Assembly (NCBI GenBank): GCA_029287755.1
Contig: JARFQM010000459.1
Location: 1 to 9,063, forward strand
Direction: 5' to 3'
Origin: Desulfofustis sp.
Lineage (GTDB): Bacteria; Desulfobacterota; Desulfobulbia; Desulfobulbales; Desulfocapsaceae
Length of the DNA stretch: 9,063 nt
Part shown: piece by piece, positions 1 to 9,063 of the stretch
Position numbering within the stretch: position 1 is the first letter of the stretch
Layout of the letters: every line of letters begins with the position of its first letter
Notes under the pieces: generated by a model
Seen by the model: only the letters and a program-made list of their open reading frames with translations
Databases searched by the model: none
Told to the model about the DNA's origin: nothing
Position numbers and translations under genes: made by a program

Positions 1-86
1 ATGTCACCCTACCGAAATGGAGGATTAGAACTATCTGGTAGATAATAGGGAAGAAGAAAGGGCCTTTTCACCTCATCGAGCTCAGG

Positions 87-2318
87 CTAGGAAATATCCA
101 GATTGGTCATTTCCTCGGTTACCGAGAACTCATACTCGGGATAATCAAAGATCGGCAGTCGAGGGTCGGTGACGCCAATCGAATAGCCGTACAACCCTTT
201 ATAATCAGCTGGGTCCTCACCGATCTCGGCGAGCTGGGCCAGATATTCGCTCACCGATTTTGATTCAATGATGATAATCTTGCCGAGTTTTTCGATGATC
301 GGGCTGTGACGCCTGGTCGCATCATGATCGAACTCCAGTATCCTCCTCCCATAGCGGGTTATGCCGATCACCCTGAAACTCAGACTCTTGCCGACCCCCG
401 GCAGATTAAGGACATTGCGGTCCGAGGCCAGAAAGGCGATGCCCTGCTTGGCCTTGACAGCGGCAAGATGCGCTGCCATCTCCCCGGGATGGTCCAGATG
501 GGCACCGAGCTCCTCGACTGCGTCATCACCCAGTTTTCCAAATACTTTTTCTTCAATCTGTTCCTGGACGGCGCGGCCATTGGTGGCAAAATTGTAGCTG
601 TTTTCCATATAGCCTTTAACCGTAAACGTGTAATAGGGAAGGACTCCCACTTCGCCAAGGGTCTGGCGCAGCTTACCATTATGCCCTCGCCTTGAAGCCG
701 CCGCCGTGAAGACATGCTGATTGATAACCAGCCAGCCGGCCTGGTGGAGTCGGCGCAGTGCTTCTTCGACCCGGGGAGTGATTTCCATGGGCGACTCGAA
801 GTGGGTCTGGATCATGAACTGCCGAATGCCGATCCGCCCGGCTTTTTCGCGGAAGTTCCGCAAAATGCGGGTCAGTTCCGGAGTTATTCGCTGGGGCAGG
901 TAAACCGGCAGACGGGTACCGAGCCGCACTCGCAGTATTTCGGCGTATTTTTCTTTCTCGGGTCGTTTTTTATTGGCCGCCCGTTTGCGTTTTGCCATCT
1001 GGTAGACGCCTTCGAGCAGCTGTCCGAGGGCCGCATCCGAACTCATGAGTGCGTCTCCGCCGGTGATAAGGATATCCCGAAGCTGGGAATCCTGCTCGAA
1101 GTAGTGCAACAGATCCTGGAGGCGTTCCGGCCATTTCTTGTCGGGCCGTAATTTCTTCAGATCAAAGTTCAGCCTCCCCTTCTGGAACGAATACATTCTC
1201 TGGCAGGATGAACAAAGTCCGCCACAGGCCCGTCCCGTGGTGCCGGGAATGAGGATGGCGACCTCCGGATACCTCCGGTGAATATGGCAGTCGGAGGGCA
1301 GCAGCCAGCCGGCGGCGTTGGGTTTGCCCGGCTCCACCTGGTCCTCCTTTTCCCAGGCGACGATATGGCCGAATTCGTCGATCAATTGTTTGCTGTAGAC
1401 CACGTAATGGCGAATGGCCAGATCGGCGCCGATGGCAAAGTAGGGAACCCGGACATGCAGGAGAGAGAGGTAGTAGGGATTGACGAAAATAGGGATACCA
1501 TTCTGCTCCGCCTGGTACAGCAGTGCCATTGTATCCGGATCAAGTGAGTTGCCGAGCATCTCGTTAAGCAGATCGGCAGATCGGACGGCGAATCTGAGAT
1601 GGAAGCGGTAGTCCTCCCACCACTCGAGTGCCTGCAGAAATTTTTGCTCAGCCGAGAGATCCGGCGGGAAGCAGTATTTTCGATCAACGATTTCTTTCGA
1701 CTCAATCTTGTCTATGATCAGATTCAGAATACGATCCCTGTTTTCTTCCCTGAGTTTGACTATGCGGGGGTCAAGTCCGGAGGGAAACCTGGCCATCCAT
1801 TTTTCAACCTGCTGTCGGTCCGGTAATTCATGTGTTTCCACCCCTTCGAACTGGCGGAACAGGTGAATCATATCCTCAAAGAAGGGGGGCCTGGCTCCGC
1901 CTGTGCCATGATTGACCGCCAGCCAAATCATTTTGATTGGATTATTGATCGCCGCCACCCCGCGCAGGTTCTGGTCCCGATAGGTCATCCCGGCATGGTC
2001 GATATAGTCGAGCAGACGGATCGCACCAAAATCTTTCCAGTTGAGTATTTCATAGGGATTTTCATGGGCCAGCTCACCACGGTAGTAAGCAACGGCCTGC
2101 TGGTTGCCGGCCAATGCCTCGAGCACCCAGCTCCTGACTCCGATAAGCGCCTCGATTTCGGTCTTGGCGTAGCGCATTATTTTTTCGAGTTTAGGGTTCT
2201 CGGACAACAGCTGGTGCAGCAGGCGGTGGGATTTAACCGAGATCGCCACCCGGTCCAGATCCGTCAGCTCCGGGTCATGGCTGTTATAGCGGCGGTTCGC
2301 CTGGTTGGGGCCGTGCAT
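87..2318 (-). CDS. KamA-family radical SAM, PLP-dependent aminomutase; candidate glutamate 2,3-aminomutase with a long N-terminal extension
   Basis: The protein is 743 aa from the chosen start. The radical SAM motif CxxxCxxC is at C365, C369 and C372. The GGD motif that contacts SAM is at 420-422, an RLGTRLPVYLPQRI-type segment lies at about 465-478, and the PLP-lysine motif PGVGK is at 640-644 (K644). Typical KamA sequence starts near W234 (WEDYRFHLR, then NPYYLSLL at 280-287). Family knowledge: these enzymes move an alpha-amino group to the beta carbon using SAM, a [4Fe-4S] cluster and PLP. The two Asp residues that hold the lysine side chain in lysine 2,3-aminomutase (D293 and D330, Clostridium subterminale numbering) align by eye with K568 and N638 here, the pair I recall for glutamate 2,3-aminomutase. 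Substrate is therefore inferred to be glutamate rather than lysine. Residues 1-230 are an extra, mostly helical region absent from the usual ~420-aa enzymes. A TTG 13 codons upstream (2357) also opens the frame, but ATG 2318 has an excellent Shine-Dalgarno. The gene has its own promoter. Family assignment is firm, substrate moderate. Confidence 0.93.
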   Translation of the reverse strand: MHGPNQANRRYNSHDPELTDLDRVAISVKSHRLLHQLLSENPKLEKIMRYAKTEIEALIGVRSWVLEALAGNQQAVAYYRGELAHENPYEILNWKDFGAIRLLDYIDHAGMTYRDQNLRGVAAINNPIKMIWLAVNHGTGGARPPFFEDMIHLFRQFEGVETHELPDRQQVEKWMARFPSGLDPRIVKLREENRDRILNLIIDKIESKEIVDRKYCFPPDLSAEQKFLQALEWWEDYRFHLRFAVRSADLLNEMLGNSLDPDTMALLYQAEQNGIPIFVNPYYLSLLHVRVPYFAIGADLAIRHYVVYSKQLIDEFGHIVAWEKEDQVEPGKPNAAGWLLPSDCHIHRRYPEVAILIPGTTGRACGGLCSSCQRMYSFQKGRLNFDLKKLRPDKKWPERLQDLLHYFEQDSQLRDILITGGDALMSSDAALGQLLEGVYQMAKRKRAANKKRPEKEKYAEILRVRLGTRLPVYLPQRITPELTRILRNFREKAGRIGIRQFMIQTHFESPMEITPRVEEALRRLHQAGWLVINQHVFTAAASRRGHNGKLRQTLGEVGVLPYYTFTVKGYMENSYNFATNGRAVQEQIEEKVFGKLGDDAVEELGAHLDHPGEMAAHLAAVKAKQGIAFLASDRNVLNLPGVGKSLSFRVIGITRYGRRILEFDHDATRRHSPIIEKLGKIIIIESKSVSEYLAQLAEIGEDPADYKGLYGYSIGVTDPRLPIFDYPEYEFSVTEEMTNLDIS

Positions 2319-2325
2319 TGATCGG

Positions 2326-2332
2326 TCCTCCC
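2326..2332 (-). promoter_or_regulatory. Shine-Dalgarno GGGAGGA fixing the start of the KamA-like gene
   Basis: On the minus strand GGGAGGA lies 7 nt before the ATG at 2318. The alternative upstream start at 2357 is a TTG with no comparable purine-rich site. This makes the 743-residue reading much more likely than 756. Confidence 0.8.
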
Positions 2333-2398
2333 TTCCCTGGAGTGACGGTTGCAGCAATAAGAAGAGCAGGCTCTGCCAAGCGGTCAGGTCCTCTCTAA

Positions 2399-2426
2399 AT
2401 TATAGGACTAAATTACTCAGAATCAA
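2399..2426 (-). promoter_or_regulatory. Sigma70-type promoter of the KamA-like gene
   Basis: On the minus strand a -35 TTGATT (2421-2426) and a perfect -10 TATAAT (2399-2404) are separated by 16 nt. The predicted transcript would begin near 2392 and carry a leader of about 74 nt before the ATG at 2318. The promoter lies between the end of the polyferredoxin gene (2455) and the KamA-like gene. The aminomutase can therefore be expressed independently of the upstream pair. No operator-like palindrome is obvious over it. Confidence 0.7.
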
Positions 2427-2454
2427 AGGCGGGTCGACGGTAGACCAGCGTGGC

Positions 2455-4056
2455 TCAGCCGCCGTACAAGAATGGTTCCTGGGCTGCGGGGAGGCGGCTC
2501 TCAGGGTGACGATGCTCACCGGCACTGGTAATAATTATGGCGCTGTGATCGGGCAGCGGGCATTTTGTTTCGCAGATGCCGCAGCCGATGCATAGTCCAT
2601 CGTCAACATAAGGCTGGCGCACCTGCCGCCTGGCACCCTGTTCATCGACTACCTCGACGTTTCTGAACTTGATCGCCTTTTCCGGAGTCGGACAGTGTTC
2701 CTCGCAGACAATGCACGGTATAGCTTTGGCATAGGGTAGACAGCGATTTTTGTCGAACCAGGCGTGGCCGATCTTGAAGGTGTGCTTGCGGGCCATATCC
2801 AAGACATCGATAGCCCCCGTCGGACATACCTGGCCGCAGAGGGTGCAGTTGAACTCACAATAGCCGGTCCGGGCAACCAGATAGGGCGTGAACATTCCCT
2901 CGATGCCGGCCCTGAGCATAACCGGCTGCAGGCCATTGGTGATGCAGACCTGCATGCATTGGCCGCAGCGCACGCAGCGGTTGAGAAACTCTCGCTCGGC
3001 CAGGGCCCCCGGCGGCCTGATCAACAGGGGATCGGCCTGGACATTGAGGGTACGGACACCGAGCACCGTGGGCAGAACCAGTGAGGCCGAGGCGGCAGCC
3101 AGAAAGCGTCTGCGCGACAGTGAAATACCCGCTCCGCGCGAGAGTGGAACCTGCGCTTGAAAAGAAATGACCTGCCGCGGACATTGTTCAAAACAGTCCA
3201 GGCAGAGCACACAGGCGTGCACATCTATCTTCCGCTGTTCGTCGATGGCGCCCATGCGGCAGATCTGGGCGCAGCGCCGGCAGGCCCGGCAATCTTCGTC
3301 GCCTCCTGCCAGTGACAGCAGCCCCAGCCGGCTGAACCAGCCCAGCAAGGCGCCGAGCGGGCAGACATTTCGACAGAAGAAACGATGCTGCACATGTTCG
3401 GCAGCAATTACCAGCAGCAGTAACAACAGACTGACCAGCCCGAACTGATAGAATTTTTGTTCAAAGGGCAGAACAGTAAGCTGCAGAAACGCATAGAACG
3501 GCTCGGTGATCCGGTTCACTGTCTCCGGCAGATGCTGGTAGGTGAAGGTGAAAAAGGAGACGGTCACCTCGTTGATACCAGGGTAGACGGCCTGCGACAG
3601 CCCCCGCACCAGGATCGAGAAGGGATCCAGATAGCCGGCCAGCGGCACTCCACATAACGCTGAGACGAGAACGAAGACGAGCAGTATCTTGGGCAGGGAA
3701 GGAAACCTCGAAGCACCCGGGGTTCCGGCAGTCCCGAACAGGCGGCGCCAGCCGTCGAGCAAGCCGCCCAGGGGACAGATCCAGCCGCAGAAGGAGCGGC
3801 CCGCCAGGAGACTGAGGAGAACCACCAGAAGAGCCGGCAGCATCAGGATGATCACGGTTTTCACTGCCAGCATGGTGGCCAGCGCCAGCAGCGGATCGAT
3901 CCGGAAGAGAATATTTACCGCATACTCAATGGTGTCGGAACCGGTATAGTCGGTTTTGACAAAAAGAAAGACAAACAGGAGAAAAGCGAGGAGCTGAGCA
4001 GCAACCCGCCCCTTTCTCCACCAGCGGTAGACGCTTTTCGCGGAAGCCTGGCCCAC
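2455..4056 (-). CDS. Membrane polyferredoxin: NapH-like integral membrane part fused to a Tat-exported NapG-like 4Fe-4S ferredoxin
   Basis: 533 aa. Residues 1-250 are a NapH/YccM-like membrane domain with hydrophobic segments at about 17-34, 54-86, 122-142 and 204-220 and the two CxxxCP pairs typical of NapH (C90/C94 and C228/C232). Two cytoplasm-type [4Fe-4S] motifs follow at C266-C276 and C282-C292. Next comes SRRRFL (314-319) with a hydrophobic stretch to about 343, which reads as an internal twin-arginine signal. The last 180 residues carry four more cysteine clusters (C361-C371, C400-C411, C439/C448/C451/C455, C489-C499), as in NapG. The whole protein looks like an electron wire from membrane quinol or cytoplasmic donors to periplasmic clusters; this is inferred from NapGH. 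The start is GTG, 3 nt after the DUF362 stop codon, with only a weak ribosome site, so translational coupling is likely. The electron partner is unknown. No napA, nosZ or other terminal reductase is in the window. Confidence 0.9.
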   Translation of the reverse strand: MGQASAKSVYRWWRKGRVAAQLLAFLLFVFLFVKTDYTGSDTIEYAVNILFRIDPLLALATMLAVKTVIILMLPALLVVLLSLLAGRSFCGWICPLGGLLDGWRRLFGTAGTPGASRFPSLPKILLVFVLVSALCGVPLAGYLDPFSILVRGLSQAVYPGINEVTVSFFTFTYQHLPETVNRITEPFYAFLQLTVLPFEQKFYQFGLVSLLLLLLVIAAEHVQHRFFCRNVCPLGALLGWFSRLGLLSLAGGDEDCRACRRCAQICRMGAIDEQRKIDVHACVLCLDCFEQCPRQVISFQAQVPLSRGAGISLSRRRFLAAASASLVLPTVLGVRTLNVQADPLLIRPPGALAEREFLNRCVRCGQCMQVCITNGLQPVMLRAGIEGMFTPYLVARTGYCEFNCTLCGQVCPTGAIDVLDMARKHTFKIGHAWFDKNRCLPYAKAIPCIVCEEHCPTPEKAIKFRNVEVVDEQGARRQVRQPYVDDGLCIGCGICETKCPLPDHSAIIITSAGEHRHPESRLPAAQEPFLYGG

Positions 4057-4059
4057 GCC

Positions 4060-4977
4060 TTACCCGCTGCCCGCAAGAAGATTCATCCGGGCCGGATCTA
4101 TCTGTCCGAGTCCCATGCGGTGGGCGGCTACGGTGGCAGCTATATCCTCCGGTTTAAGGCCGAACAGCGTCGTGGCCACGGCATCGGCGGCCACCGGATC
4201 AACCGATCCTATCAAGGTGTCAAGTACTTTCACATCCTTCAGGGAGCCACCCTGCGGCCCGTTGTCGGTTAGAATTCGAGTGGCATCGATAATGGTCAGC
4301 CGGGGACTGATGACGGTGGCCAGATCGGCCAGATTCTGGCCCAAATCGTGGTGCAGCGCCCCACGCCTGCCGCCGATGACTCCCATTGAATTCTTAAGCC
4401 CCAGGCTGAGGCGGCTGAGACCATGGTGTTTGGCCACGGGCACGTTTATGTAGGTATCCGCCGTCAAGGCGTCTTTATAGATGTCCCACTGTTTCAGGGA
4501 GCGGCCCTTGGCTATTTCAACCGGAACGAATTTTCGCTGATCGATATGCACAAGTTTCGCCTGTGTGCTGCCGATGGATTTAATCGCTTCGGTCATCCCG
4601 CTGTTATTGTAGCAGCGCCGTTTCTCGTTGCAGGTGTAGTCGAAGATCATCACCTCCTTGGCTCCCTCCTCTAGTGCCATCTCAACCAGGGTTCTGACCA
4701 CCTGCGGGTGGGTGTTGGCCCCCTGCTCGGGCTTGCGGTCCCAGCCGATATTGGGTTTCACCACCACCTTATCTCCCGGCTTGACGAACCGGCTCATGGA
4801 GCCGAGCAGGTCGACGGTTTCTCGCACCAGCGCCCCATAGTCACTCCCTGTAACCTTTGCCACGTCGGGTACGGATTCGTTCAGGGCAAGACACTCGGGG
4901 ACACGAAGGAGGGGAAGGGAGAGACTGAGACCACCGCTGTAAAGCGCCACCTGTTTGAGAAATCGACGTCTGTTCAT
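4060..4977 (-). CDS. DUF362 domain-containing protein with Tat signal
   Basis: 305 aa from the chosen start. The N terminus MNRRRFLK followed by a hydrophobic stretch (about 8-26) is a twin-arginine signal, so the protein should be exported folded, probably with a cofactor. Conserved DUF362 segments are visible: VVVKPNIGWDR (about 73-83), NTHPQVVRTLVE, a KHHGLSRLSLGLKNSMG segment, and IIDATRILTDNGPQGG near the C-terminal third. Cysteines occur in DYTCNEKRRC. The biochemical role of the family is not established as far as I know; it often sits beside 4Fe-4S proteins, as here, and some members are fused to ferredoxin domains. The frame stays open to a GTG at 5079, but ATG 4977 has a GGAG site 6 nt upstream and places the Tat motif at the very N terminus, so I prefer it. 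It is first in an operon with the polyferredoxin gene 3 nt downstream. A shared role in periplasmic electron transfer is inference. Confidence 0.88.
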   Translation of the reverse strand: MNRRRFLKQVALYSGGLSLSLPLLRVPECLALNESVPDVAKVTGSDYGALVRETVDLLGSMSRFVKPGDKVVVKPNIGWDRKPEQGANTHPQVVRTLVEMALEEGAKEVMIFDYTCNEKRRCYNNSGMTEAIKSIGSTQAKLVHIDQRKFVPVEIAKGRSLKQWDIYKDALTADTYINVPVAKHHGLSRLSLGLKNSMGVIGGRRGALHHDLGQNLADLATVISPRLTIIDATRILTDNGPQGGSLKDVKVLDTLIGSVDPVAADAVATTLFGLKPEDIAATVAAHRMGLGQIDPARMNLLAGSG

Positions 4978-4983
4978 GGACTG

Positions 4984-4987
4984 CTCC
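4984..4987 (-). promoter_or_regulatory. Shine-Dalgarno GGAG deciding the DUF362 start
   Basis: GGAG on the minus strand lies 6 nt before the ATG at 4977. The choice trims 34 residues of low-complexity, non-conserved N-terminal extension that would otherwise precede the Tat signal. Confidence 0.65.
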
Positions 4988-5166
4988 GCTGCGTTGTTGA
5001 TTGTTCTGCTACCCCGCAAGTCTACCACATCGGTCCTGGTGCTACCAGCACGTGATGGATGTTTGGTGTCCGAAAACACCTATTCACTCTTAATTATCGG
5101 GTGCTTGGTAGAGGTTCCCAGAATCCGACCTAGCAAAATAACATCGTAGAATAATTGATTTTACGA

Positions 5167-5238
5167 GTACCACATGTGTGAATATCCTTGACAAAATCGA
5201 CCCAACACAGCACAAAGTAGTACTGACATTTGTGGTAC
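5167..5238. repeat. Spaced inverted repeat GTACCACA ... TGTGGTAC, possible paired operator
   Basis: GTACCACA at 5167-5174 is matched by its exact reverse complement at 5231-5238. With the adjoining bases the arms (5167-5181 and 5224-5238) agree at 12 of 15 positions, with consensus GTACCACANNTGTNA. The arms flank the TTGACA at 5188-5193. If that is a -35 box, the left arm lies just upstream of it and the right arm falls near the start of transcription. This suggests a two-site operator, but it is not tied to any known regulator. Confidence 0.4.
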
Positions 5239-5329
5239 ATGATAATTAGCCCGGCCCGGGCACGTCAACCTTATGCTGCTGCCTGGGTGAAGGAGAACAA
5301 GATCATAAATTTTCAGGCAGGTACACACG

Positions 5330-6286
5330 ATGAATGAAGCATTGATTCTGGAGAAACTGGACCAGCTATCCGCCGAAGTAAGCTCGCTCAAATCCGATGT
5401 CATGCAGGACATCAGGAAAGACCTCGAACCGGTATTGAAAGATGCGATGCCAAGTATTTCCAGCATTCTGGAAGATATAGATGACCGCTACACCAAAGAG
5501 AAGGCCATCCACCTCGCCCAGAATGTCCTCACCAGTCTCGATGAGCTGAACGACATCGTCGATACCGTCAAAGCCGGCATGGAACTGAAGGGGGACATGA
5601 TGCCGGTGGTCAAGCAGGTATACCCGTCAACGATCAATTTTTTCAACGATCTCAGCGGGGAATTTCATGTCGACGAGCTCACTATTCTGCTCAGGAAACT
5701 GATAACCAACCTGGACAGCCTCGGAGAAGCGATGGATATGCTCAAGGCGGGGGTCGAGCTCCGGGACGAAATGGTTCCCATCGTCCAGCTCATGTACCCG
5801 CGCATCATCCGCTTTATGAAATCGCTGCATGAAGGCGAGTTCCAAGCCGAGAAACTCGGCGACCTGCTGCACACCATATTGATCAACATCCACACCCTGA
5901 GCGACCTGCTCAATATGGCCCAGCCCATGACCGAATTCGTCAAGGAATTCACCGCCGTCATGAAAGGCTCCGACATCATGAATTCGGTAAATCTCTGGCT
6001 CGACAGCCTGCAGCAGAGCAGCGGCCTGGTGAAAGTCGCGGGCGTCTCGTGGACCCAGTTGAAAAGACTCGATTACAACGAAAAGCAGGTCGAAGAGATC
6101 TGCAACGCGATCTCAGGTCTCGATTTTACCAAAGCCGAACCCGTGGGCCCGTTCACCCTGATGAAAAAGATGAGGGACCCCAAAGTCCAGTCTGCCCTGG
6201 GTTTCATGTTCATGATGCTGGAGACCATGGGCACCGTGGTACTGGCCTACCAGGATGATAAGAGAGAACAAGAGAACAACACATAA
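5330..6286 (+). CDS. DUF1641 domain protein made of about four helical repeats
   Basis: 318 aa, predicted almost entirely alpha-helical, with no signal peptide and no clear membrane span. The C-terminal segment at about 273-300 (GPF, then MRDPKVQSALGFMFMMLE) matches the DUF1641 motif by eye. The rest consists of imperfect repeats of about 59 residues that begin LDQL (10), LDEL (70), LDSL (128) and IHTL (187). The second and third copies are clearly alike (KAGMELKGDMMPVVKQVYP versus KAGVELRDEMVPIVQLMYP). Family knowledge: DUF1641 genes often sit beside SQR-like flavoproteins, and Bacillus subtilis yrhD sits beside a formate dehydrogenase gene. The flavoprotein gene begins 80 nt downstream on the same strand with no terminator between, so an operon is likely. 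A role as scaffold or membrane-docking partner of the flavoprotein is inference. Start ATG 5330 has an AGGCAGG site 8 nt upstream. Confidence 0.85.
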   Translation: MNEALILEKLDQLSAEVSSLKSDVMQDIRKDLEPVLKDAMPSISSILEDIDDRYTKEKAIHLAQNVLTSLDELNDIVDTVKAGMELKGDMMPVVKQVYPSTINFFNDLSGEFHVDELTILLRKLITNLDSLGEAMDMLKAGVELRDEMVPIVQLMYPRIIRFMKSLHEGEFQAEKLGDLLHTILINIHTLSDLLNMAQPMTEFVKEFTAVMKGSDIMNSVNLWLDSLQQSSGLVKVAGVSWTQLKRLDYNEKQVEEICNAISGLDFTKAEPVGPFTLMKKMRDPKVQSALGFMFMMLETMGTVVLAYQDDKREQENNT

Positions 6287-6300
6287 ATGATGAGTTCACA

Positions 6301-6348
6301 TACGGTTACACCGACTGTATCAATCTCGCACCTGTAAACCTGACCGTA
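6301..6348 (+). other. Possible stem-loop in the leader of the SQR-like gene
   Basis: TACGGTTACA (6301-6310) can pair with TGTA (6333-6336) and ACCGTA (6343-6348), leaving a 6-nt bulge. The hairpin ends just before the strong Shine-Dalgarno GGAGG (6351-6355), which is 11 nt from the ATG at 6367. There is no U-tract, so it is not a terminator. It could be an RNA-processing or stability element between the two cistrons. Confidence 0.3.
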
Positions 6349-6366
6349 AAGGAGGCAACAGAAAAC

Positions 6367-7587
6367 ATGAAAAAGCTAGTCATACTCGGTGGCGGCACCG
6401 GGGGTACCATGATGGCGAACAAGCTGAGGAAGGATTTGGACGATGACTGGTCGATCACCATTATCGACAAGGACAATATCCATTATTACCAGCCCGGCTA
6501 TCTTTTCGTTCCGTTCGACATCAACAAACCGCGTGAGATCAGAAGGAGCAAGCGGGAGTTCATCAACCCGGGAATCGAATTTGTCATCAGCGATATCACC
6601 AATGTCGACTGGGACAAGCAGGAGGTCTCCACCGCGACCGAAGGTAAATTCAACTACGATATCCTGGTAATGGCCACCGGCTGTGATATCAGACCAGACG
6701 AAGTGGAAGGGCTCGAGGAGGGCTGGGGGCACGACATCTATGGGTATTACCGCTTTAACGACTGCCAGGAACTGGGCAAGGCGCTGAAGAGGTTCAAAGG
6801 CGGCAGGATGGTGGTCAATATCGCCGAAATGCCGATCAAGTGCCCGGTTGCGCCGCTCGAGTTCGCCTTTCTCGCAGACTGGTATTTCCATGAGCGGGGC
6901 ATTCGCGACGATGTCGAGATCGAATTCGTCACTCCGCTTTCGGGTGCGTTCACCAAACCGGTTGCCACCAAAGTTCTGACCGATGCCTGCGAAGACAAGA
7001 ATATCAAGATCATTCCAAATTTTGCGCTCGGCTCGGTCGACCATAAGGCGAAAGTCATTCAGGCCTTTGACGGCAGCGAAGTGGAATATGACATGCTGGT
7101 CTCCATTCCGCCCAACTTCGGGGCCCAGGTCATGATCGACTCCGGTATTGCCGACCCCATGGGCTACATCCCCGTCGACAAGCACACCCTGCAGCCTGAA
7201 GGCCGCGACAATGTCTGGGTTCTGGGCGACGGAACGGACGTACCGACCTCGAAGGCAGGCGCGGTGGCCCACTTCCAGGGAGACGTGCTGCATGAGAACA
7301 TCCTGGCCTATGTTTCGGGAGGTGAACAGCACGCCCGGTCGGACGGGCACGCGGTCTGATTCATCGAATCAGGCTTCGGGAAAGCCTACATAATCGACTT
7401 CAACTACGACCAGGAGCCACTGACCGGGAAGTACCCCTTTCCAGCCATCGGCCCGATGAGTCTGCTGAAAGACACGGAACTCAACCACATGGCCAAACTT
7501 ATGTTCAAGTGGGCCTACTTCAACCTGCTCCTCAAGGGGGCCTGGCTTGGACCGCCCGACTTGATGATGGAAGGCAAAGTGAGATAA
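6367..7587 (+). CDS. Sulfide:quinone oxidoreductase-like flavoprotein, probable selenoprotein (Sec331 encoded by TGA 7357-7359)
   Basis: Read through one in-frame TGA the protein is 406 aa, normal for SQR-like enzymes; stopping at the TGA gives 330 aa without the C terminus. Visible motifs are GGGTGG (8-13) for FAD, HYYQPGYLFVPF (39-50), ATG (103-105), PIKCPVAP (156-163) and LGDGTD (286-291). Family knowledge: SQR oxidises sulfide using FAD and two redox cysteines and passes electrons to quinone. C159 fits the first (human SQOR Cys201, in a KCAGAP context). The TGA follows DGHAV and precedes FIESGFGK, the position of the second (human Cys379, in YDGYTSCP), so selenocysteine replaces it. The 75 codons after the TGA retain family sequence (IIDFNYDQEPLTGKYPFP), plus a hydrophobic/amphipathic tail near 375-395 suited to membrane docking, and end at TAA 7585-7587. 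The TGA is followed by a SECIS-like hairpin. The natural substrate could be sulfide, polysulfide or another sulfur or selenium compound. Partner: the DUF1641 gene upstream. Main alternative: a recent nonsense mutation, which the hairpin and intact tail argue against. Confidence 0.9.
7357..7395 (+). promoter_or_regulatory. Bacterial SECIS element directing selenocysteine insertion
   Basis: The TGA is at 7357-7359. Exactly 11 nt later a 17-nt stem-loop begins: AGGCTT (7371-7376), loop CGGGA (7377-7381), AAGCCT (7382-7387), six perfect pairs with G at the second loop position. A lower helix can form between GATT (7358-7361, including two bases of the TGA) and AATC (7392-7395). Family knowledge: the E. 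coli fdhF SECIS that binds SelB has a 17-nt upper stem-loop 11 nt after the UGA with G at the start of the loop. The geometry here matches. SelB and tRNA-Sec genes must lie elsewhere in the genome. Confidence 0.82.
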
Positions 7588-7620
7588 CCTGCGAGATCGA
7601 TCTCCACCTTTTTCGCAGCC

Positions 7621-7653
7621 GGCCGGGGTCGCAAGATCCCGGCCATTTTTATT
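7621..7653 (+). terminator. Rho-independent terminator of the DUF1641/SQR-like operon
   Basis: GGCCGGGGTC (7621-7630) pairs with GATCCCGGCC (7635-7644) through 10 pairs, one of them G-U. The loop is a GCAA tetraloop and the stem is followed by ATTTTTATTT. It lies 33 nt after the TAA at 7587. This position also supports the operon's last gene ending at 7587 rather than at the TGA 7359. Confidence 0.9.
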
Positions 7654-7701
7654 TATCCGCACCCCCCTCTCTGCCACCCCTCTGGTTGAAAAACCTTTTG
7701 A

Positions 7702-7732
7702 AACCTCCGATCTTCTCTTATAAAAGGAGGTT
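7702..7732 (+). promoter_or_regulatory. Inverted repeat that would sequester the ribosome site of the DUF2868-like gene
   Basis: AACCTCC (7702-7708) is the exact complement of GGAGGTT (7726-7732), with a 17-nt loop. The right arm contains the Shine-Dalgarno AAGGAGG, only 2 nt from the ATG at 7733. A competing pairing exists between CCTTTT (7694-7699) and AAAAGG (7722-7727). A promoter-like TTGAAA (7698-7703) and TATAAA (7719-7724) overlap the same bases with a 15-nt spacer. If that promoter were used, the mRNA would be nearly leaderless and the hairpin would not be in it. Confidence 0.4.
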
Positions 7733-9063
7733 ATGAAAGGAAGTTGGACATATCCTGACCTCATTGACCTTGAATATTTCCTGGCAGGGGACCGGGAACG
7801 GCCCCAGGCCGATCTGCACCGCAGGGATCGGCAGCTCTACCTCGATTTCCCAGCCGAAATTCAACAGGCCGATAAGGAGTCACTGATCCAGCAGTGGCTG
7901 CTCGGCCTCAGGCATCAGGAGTTCCCCACGGGGAAAAGCCCCGGCCAGACCATCGTCGATCTATTCAGGGCCTTCACCATTATCCTGTTGCTCTGCGGCG
8001 CTTTTCTCGGTCTGGCGAGCGGATTGACCTTTTTCACCTACTCCGGGACAACCCCGGTAAACGTCATTAATTTTTTATTTCTCTTCCTTTTCAGCCAGCT
8101 CCTGATGCTGCTCTTTCTTTTTTTGGGCGCGGGATTCAGGTTGGCTGGGTTGGCGCTGCTCCCGGCACCGATCACGGGTTTCTATGGGAGAACTGTCGCC
8201 TGGTTGTTGCAGCACTCCAAAAAACTCAACCGTATCCTGGCGGGCAGCCACAGGGGCAATGCAACCCAGCTTGTAGGATTGCTGAAGACGCAGCGGGCGG
8301 TTTACGGACCAACATTCTACTGGCCGCTCTTCAGCCTCTCCCAAGGGGTAATGGTGTGTTTCAACCTTGGTCTGCTGACGGCAACGTTGTTCAGGATACT
8401 GACCAGTGATATTGCCTTTGGCTGGCAATCGACCATTCAATTCAGCACCGCATTCATTTCCAAGACGGTACAGACGCTTGCCCTGCCCTGGTCATGGATC
8501 GTTCCTACCAATCATAGCTTCCCTTCGGCAGCCCAGATAGAGGGCAGCAGAATCATTTTGAAGGACGGCATCTATCATTTGCAGACCCAGGACCTGGTCT
8601 CCTGGTGGCCGTTTCTCGTACTCTGCATCCTTTTCTATGGGGTGTTCGTCAGGCTGCTCCTGGTCGCGGCCGGCAGGATTGGTCAGTGGAGGGCTCTGCA
8701 CAGCCTGAAAACCGACAGGCCGGTGCTGGCCCAGGTGGTCGGCCGCATGACCACACCGCTGATGAGGAGTCAGGCTGCCGCAGCCGACGCTGGAAGTACC
8801 TACATTGCCGATCCCGAGGAGCGAGGCAGAAGCGCTGATTCGGTGCGGCCCGTGCCACCGACGACCAGTCTGCTGGTGCTGCTTTCCGAGGAACTATCAG
8901 AAAACTACACCGGCACAGGGTGGAAACAATTTCTCAGTGACATCGGTTTCTCTGTTTCGGGCATCGAAATCTATCGCCAGGACGCTGCCGCCCCCCATTC
9001 TCTTTTCGAGGGGGTGGCGGGCAATGTAAACCTCGGTGAAGGCGGGGTGATGCTGGTCATGGA
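7733..9063 (+). CDS. DUF2868-type multi-pass membrane protein, partial at the right edge
   Basis: 443 codons are visible and the frame is still open at the window end. The N terminus SWTYPDLIDLEYFL and the segments GPTFYWPLFSLSQG (192-205), TSDIAFGWQSTIQF (224-237) and KDGIYHLQTQDLVSWWP (277-293) resemble DUF2868 proteins as I recall them; I could not run a domain search. Hydrophobic segments lie at about 74-100, 107-138, 192-220 and 291-313, giving about four membrane spans with a soluble C-terminal part. The function is unknown. Family knowledge: DUF2868 genes are commonly followed by a DUF3482 GTPase gene, which would lie beyond the right edge. The start is ATG 7733; AAGGAGG is unusually close (2 nt), but no better in-frame start is seen nearby. 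A terminator upstream separates it from the SQR-like operon. Confidence 0.8.
   Translation, partial: MKGSWTYPDLIDLEYFLAGDRERPQADLHRRDRQLYLDFPAEIQQADKESLIQQWLLGLRHQEFPTGKSPGQTIVDLFRAFTIILLLCGAFLGLASGLTFFTYSGTTPVNVINFLFLFLFSQLLMLLFLFLGAGFRLAGLALLPAPITGFYGRTVAWLLQHSKKLNRILAGSHRGNATQLVGLLKTQRAVYGPTFYWPLFSLSQGVMVCFNLGLLTATLFRILTSDIAFGWQSTIQFSTAFISKTVQTLALPWSWIVPTNHSFPSAAQIEGSRIILKDGIYHLQTQDLVSWWPFLVLCILFYGVFVRLLLVAAGRIGQWRALHSLKTDRPVLAQVVGRMTTPLMRSQAAAADAGSTYIADPEERGRSADSVRPVPPTTSLLVLLSEELSENYTGTGWKQFLSDIGFSVSGIEIYRQDAAAPHSLFEGVAGNVNLGEGGVMLVM

Follow-up and report, generated by a model that had tools for sequence, protein, structure and literature searches.

A sulfide quinone reductase-like flavoprotein gene of Desulfofustis sp. 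with probable selenocysteine at its second redox position

The 9,063-nucleotide stretch analysed here (the window; Desulfofustis sp., contig JARFQM010000459.1, positions 1 to 9,063) carries at 6367..7587 of its forward strand a gene for a flavoprotein resembling sulfide quinone reductase (SQR), in which an in-frame TGA codon is probably read as selenocysteine (Sec). A likely ribosome-binding site, AAAGGAGG, was read from the sequence at 6348..6355 (+). The TGA at 7357..7359 is the sole internal stop of the frame 6367–7584, which terminates at TAA 7585–7587, and reading through it yields a 406-residue product with Sec (U) at residue 331 that is SQR-like over its full length and contains both the GxGxxG motif for binding flavin adenine dinucleotide (FAD) and the SQR fold. 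The partner cysteine C159, encoded at 6841..6843 (+) within the motif KCPVAP (chain position 161 in human SQOR), and U331 correspond in the alignment to Cys201 and Cys379 of the human enzyme, and a placement of the predicted Sec331 at the second redox cysteine (human Cys379) is supported. The gene most likely encodes a Sec-carrying, sulfide-oxidising enzyme in which Sec replaces an active-site cysteine.

Relatives of this gene repeatedly carry TGA at the same codon. A contig scan of genomes recovered 39 related loci, 31 of them with TGA (L001–L028, L036, L037 and L038) and seven with Cys (L029–L035); the remaining locus, L039, is a decayed copy lacking the site, and the TGA locus L036 is frameshifted elsewhere. 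These two and a third SQR-like copy (G055:C53:21359-22524), frameshifted or decayed, may be assembly errors. Among 58 genomes kin to G001, which encodes the protein nearest to that of the window (99% identical), 43 gave any match, many of them weak. A named strain, Desulforhopalus singaporensis DSM 12130, is among the TGA carriers (L007), most others being metagenome assemblies; a single assembly (G057) holds three copies (L061, L062 and L063), of which one has Cys and the other two TGA. With extra loci added, the alignment comprises 47 distinct near-full-length genes, and its column 331 is TGA in all 34 TGA genes and Cys in all 13 non-TGA genes, with C159 kept in 47 of 47. The preliminary description of this DNA had proposed that the frame runs on past the TGA, that the TGA occupies the position of the C-terminal redox cysteine with its partner C159 intact, and that homologues might share the codon; each of these proposals holds, and the random stops in kin that it had named as a sign of a pseudogene are missing from the 34 full-length TGA genes, none of which contains any other stop. 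Judged from its codon changes, the tail beyond the TGA is under protein constraint: when the window gene was paired with each of nine chosen genes, synonymous changes in the tail exceeded non-synonymous ones in eight pairs. Only L061, the most distant of the nine, departs from this, with 14 synonymous and 25 non-synonymous changes in the tail and a body that behaves alike (93 and 102).

Immediately 3′ of the TGA lies a candidate selenocysteine insertion sequence (SECIS), whose upper hairpin at 7371..7387 (+) has six base pairs and the loop CGGGA at 7377–7381, 17 nt after the UGA. Across the 34 TGA genes, 160 columns are invariant in an amino acid with a degenerate codon, and just six of these are invariant in the codon itself: residues 334, 336, 337, 338, 339 and 340, that is, 3–9 codons past the TGA, with GAA at 334 and, after residue 335, GGC TTC GGG AAA GCC. 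With columns treated as independent, 200,000 random draws of six never produced clustering as tight. The resulting 17-nt RNA reads AGGCUU-CGGGA-AAGCCU in 30 TGA genes and starts with GGGCUU in the other four, forming six pairs that close a loop of five bases, the second of which is G, and the 42-nt minimum free energy (MFE) is −7.9 to −9.5 kcal/mol in all 34. Rules for bacterial SECIS elements, given in the legend to Fig. 2 of PMC13188914 as a loop of 3–9 nt, a stem of 4–16 bp, G in the first two loop positions, a distance of 16–37 nt from the UGA and an MFE of at most −7.5 kcal/mol, are satisfied in 34 of 34 TGA genes. Codon fixation, fold and rules together support the predicted hairpin, and comparison of the genes supports decoding of UGA 7357 as Sec under its direction. 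A second hairpin, UGAUUC-AUC-GAAUCA (window 7357–7374), includes the UGA itself, and in 30 of the 34 folds predicted for the 42-nt pieces it forms alongside the SECIS hairpin. An Rfam scan of the window returned no family above its gathering score.

In the Cys genes codons 334–340 vary, and the 17-nt energy ranges from 0 to −5.3 kcal/mol, as against −5.8 kcal/mol in the TGA genes. A statement that the SECIS is absent from Cys genes proved too strong and was dropped: five of 13 (L030, L033, L062, L066 and L067) fold weakly, at −4.7 to −5.3 kcal/mol, and in L067 the loop starts with G and the 42-nt energy of −6.6 misses the −7.5 rule. What sets the Cys genes apart is their lack of codon fixation. 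The codon-locked SECIS is an addition of this analysis.

Genes for Sec synthesis and insertion accompany most TGA-bearing relatives. Among 19 TGA-bearing genomes tested (G019 was left out, as it shows no more than the gene's first 35 residues), selB exceeded its cut-off in 15 and the tRNA for Sec (tRNA-Sec) its cut-off of 47 bits in 16; 15 of these 16 scored at least 69 bits, and G007 scored 49.2 from a piece at a contig end. Where tested, selA passed in six of nine genomes and selD in eight of nine. In 14 control genomes selB passed in two, E. coli and Methanocaldococcus. Both selB and tRNA-Sec also pass in four of five genomes with Cys at the locus, so the machinery alone does not single out this gene. 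Loss of the machinery in the nearest kin was considered, selB being below cut-off in G001, G002, G019, G020 and G022, and was rejected. The SelB protein of G028, used as query, finds partial selB genes at contig edges in G018, G019 and G022, and in G001 a contig breaks off within the gene that lies before selB in relatives; these breaks partly explain the missing selB, with G002 and G020 still lacking it. Applied to related genomes, the search for selA, selB, selC and selD that the preliminary description had proposed finds the machinery in most of them, an incomplete set in G001, none of it over cut-off in G002 and no selB in G020. The absence of selB and selC, which it had counted against Sec, is on paper half realized in G001, but selA and a TGA-containing selD are present there and the contig breaks before the place of selB.

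The protein family is already known. The window product matches NCBIfam NF049943 (SQR_III_seleno) with 663.8 bits over residues 2–404, against a curated cut-off of 525; an excerpt of a 2026 review (PMC13188914) lists NF049943 as 'Type III sulfide quinone reductase, selenoprotein subtype', with motif HxxU, citing deep-Sep, and the deep-Sep paper of 2025 (PMC12013277) lists the family. Because the family had been predicted in print and named, the selenoprotein claim is right but not new, and these sources answer with yes whether Sec-containing SQR homologues have been described, a point on which the preliminary description had been undecided. The window gene is another member of NF049943, sharing the motif HxxU, with nothing found that sets it apart, and the database entry from the deep-Sep organism Desulfosediminicola flagellatus (P0034) is truncated and 78% identical. 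We rejected the NF049943 name as proof of Sec, since eight of nine Cys proteins tested pass the model (the ninth, L065_3947, scores 335.7); that it also accepts Cys enzymes is an addition of this analysis. The window product cut at 330 residues also exceeds the cut-off, with 531.3 bits, and in Desulfobaculum bizertense the NCBI protein P0091 is labelled 'selenoprotein subtype' and has Cys at the Sec position. Among the best 120 of 8000 scored protein candidates, 67 stop one residue before the Sec position, bearing out the prediction that gene callers would truncate the product. A reading of the letters alone found what is very probably a true selenoprotein gene, whose database entries are still mostly cut short.

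Could the TGA instead be a genuine stop, leaving a 330-residue protein or a pseudogene with the tail as a remnant? Those 67 database proteins end exactly there, and metagenome-assembled genomes of the closest relatives lack some sel genes. A remnant would nonetheless have to account for a tail that is open and constrained in 34 genes, for a codon that is TGA in all 34 and TAA or TAG in none, for six fixed codons that form a SECIS, and for the fact that the SQR fold is completed, and its second redox residue supplied, by the tail, and we regard a true stop as highly improbable. We give equally little credence to a TGA read as Cys or Trp, through a changed code or near-cognate read-through: the Cys homologues are functional by conservation, and selB and tRNA-Sec of the window's own genome are unseen, but such decoding would not require fixed SECIS codons, and related genomes have selA, Sec-type selD, selB and tRNA-Sec. 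A more serious alternative, still unlikely, accepts the selenoprotein and assigns it other main work in a sulfate-reducing or disproportionating cell, such as reduction of polysulfide or persulfide or oxidation of another sulfur compound; against it, SQOR is the best match by sequence and by fold, and both redox positions are retained.

Several observations weigh against a SECIS-decoded, sulfide-oxidising selenoenzyme. Over 7354–7406 the fold of lowest energy (z −2.47) is a competing hairpin with the UGA drawn into it, and NF049943 does not discriminate between Sec and Cys proteins. The machinery evidence comes from relatives, the sel genes of the window's own genome being unseen; the tRNA-Sec cut-off is passed by five of 14 controls, including Caulobacter, Thermus and Thermotoga, which makes scores near 47 bits weak. 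G001 has neither selB nor tRNA-Sec over the cut-off (selA and a TGA-containing selD are found), G002 has none of selA, selB, tRNA-Sec and selD over theirs, and G020 has no selB, also after the search with the G028 SelB query. Both the sulfide oxidation activity and the selenium–sulfur bridge are predictions by analogy. Even so, those proposed checks that were run support the Sec interpretation, and a Desulfobulbales-type Sec SQR-like flavoprotein, with SECIS-directed UGA decoding and Sec331 replacing the second redox cysteine, is very probably the best explanation of the locus.

The distribution of Sec and Cys suggests a history of one gain and repeated loss. A midpoint-rooted tree of 86 proteins (37 have Cys; in 49 the position is TGA or the protein stops there, 15 of these being scored as Sec by truncation alone) needs four label changes, all forced by well-supported branches; in a smaller tree, of 47 rows, two changes are forced. 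Because the Cys outgroups span several phyla and the deep TGA branches with DNA seen (L061 and L063) share the same SECIS letters, one Sec gain followed by three returns to Cys is the simplest account and is what the tree suggests. The return branches are P0021; L023_4484 with P0010; and a group of nine (P0002–P0006, P0008, P0009, P0011 and P0012). The nested Cys rows of all these branches are known as proteins only, except L023_4484; L065_3947 was left out of the tree. At L060:4242-6973 (= L023:4484-7215) Cys and Sec copies lie in tandem in one genome, their aligned parts 302 bases apart, and the 17-nt SECIS piece no longer folds in the Cys copy, which adjoins an intact Sec copy. This pair provides a natural matched pair with which to measure the benefit of selenium in sulfide oxidation. 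The tree with one gain and three returns is likewise an addition of this analysis. An excerpt of PMC13188914 describes replacement of Sec by Cys in bacteria as rare, with FdhA and SelD as the main documented cases, and the SQR family looks like one more. It is possible, if somewhat short of probable, that all of this holds jointly: a single entry of Sec in or near Desulfobulbia, at least three losses to Cys, one of them in the tandem duplicate beside its Sec sister, and Sec enzymes with a C–S(n)–Se bridge unlike the solved SQRs.

Upstream of the SQR-like gene, a gene for a DUF1641 protein (PF07849; 5330..6286, +) is a conserved neighbour, found before 33 of the 34 TGA genes (the window counted; in L023 it precedes the tandem pair) and not at L061. 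This search used tblastn with the window's protein as query at E 1e-8, so divergent copies may be missed. Farther away on the reverse strand, 87–2318 encodes a 743-residue KamA-family radical SAM (S-adenosylmethionine) protein with no Pfam match, below the cut-offs of all NCBIfam models hit and with about 230 residues before the matched part; 2455–4056 (−) fuses NapH-like and NapG-like ferredoxin parts in a single 533-residue protein; and the adjoining DUF362 gene (4060–4977, −) has an RR motif at its start, seen by eye. A gene for a DUF2868 protein (7733–9061) is cut by the window end. A mobile or viral origin was considered and set aside: a plasmid search gave two records with 8% matches (phages were not searched). 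PADLOC gave no match for the three proteins checked.

By analogy with the human SQOR cycle, C159 would lie beside the FAD and Sec331 would be the sulfur-carrying side. Hydrosulfide would attack a C159–S(n)–Se331 bridge, leaving sulfur on C159 to form a charge-transfer complex and an adduct with FAD. Sec331 would hand its sulfane sulfur to an acceptor, and FADH2 would reduce quinone. Such a bridge may alter the rate: more speculatively, in anoxic habitats rich in sulfide, selenium might speed the opening of the bridge and the release of sulfur or make these steps less prone to inactivation, and the DUF1641 neighbour might help the enzyme. Literature searches confined to open-licence papers listed none that deals with the Sec form's enzymology.

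The closest solved relative is human SQOR (PDB 6OI5 and 8DHK), which shares the fold over 395 residues and both redox positions with the window protein and differs in having Cys379 where the window protein has predicted Sec, at 27% identity. Human SQOR is called type II in an excerpt of PMC9666304, and 'type III' is here taken from the family name. For the quinone site of the type III SQR of Caldivirga maquilingensis (SqrC), PMC9666304 describes a Phe that adjoins the redox Cys; U331–F332 of the window protein resembles this arrangement as published. Closer still are the Cys relatives (for example L029–L035 and P0091), which have Cys at the Sec column and are 50–56% identical where found by DNA, and which differ in that codons 334–340 are not fixed; the tandem Cys copy L023_4484 is 74% identical to the window protein.
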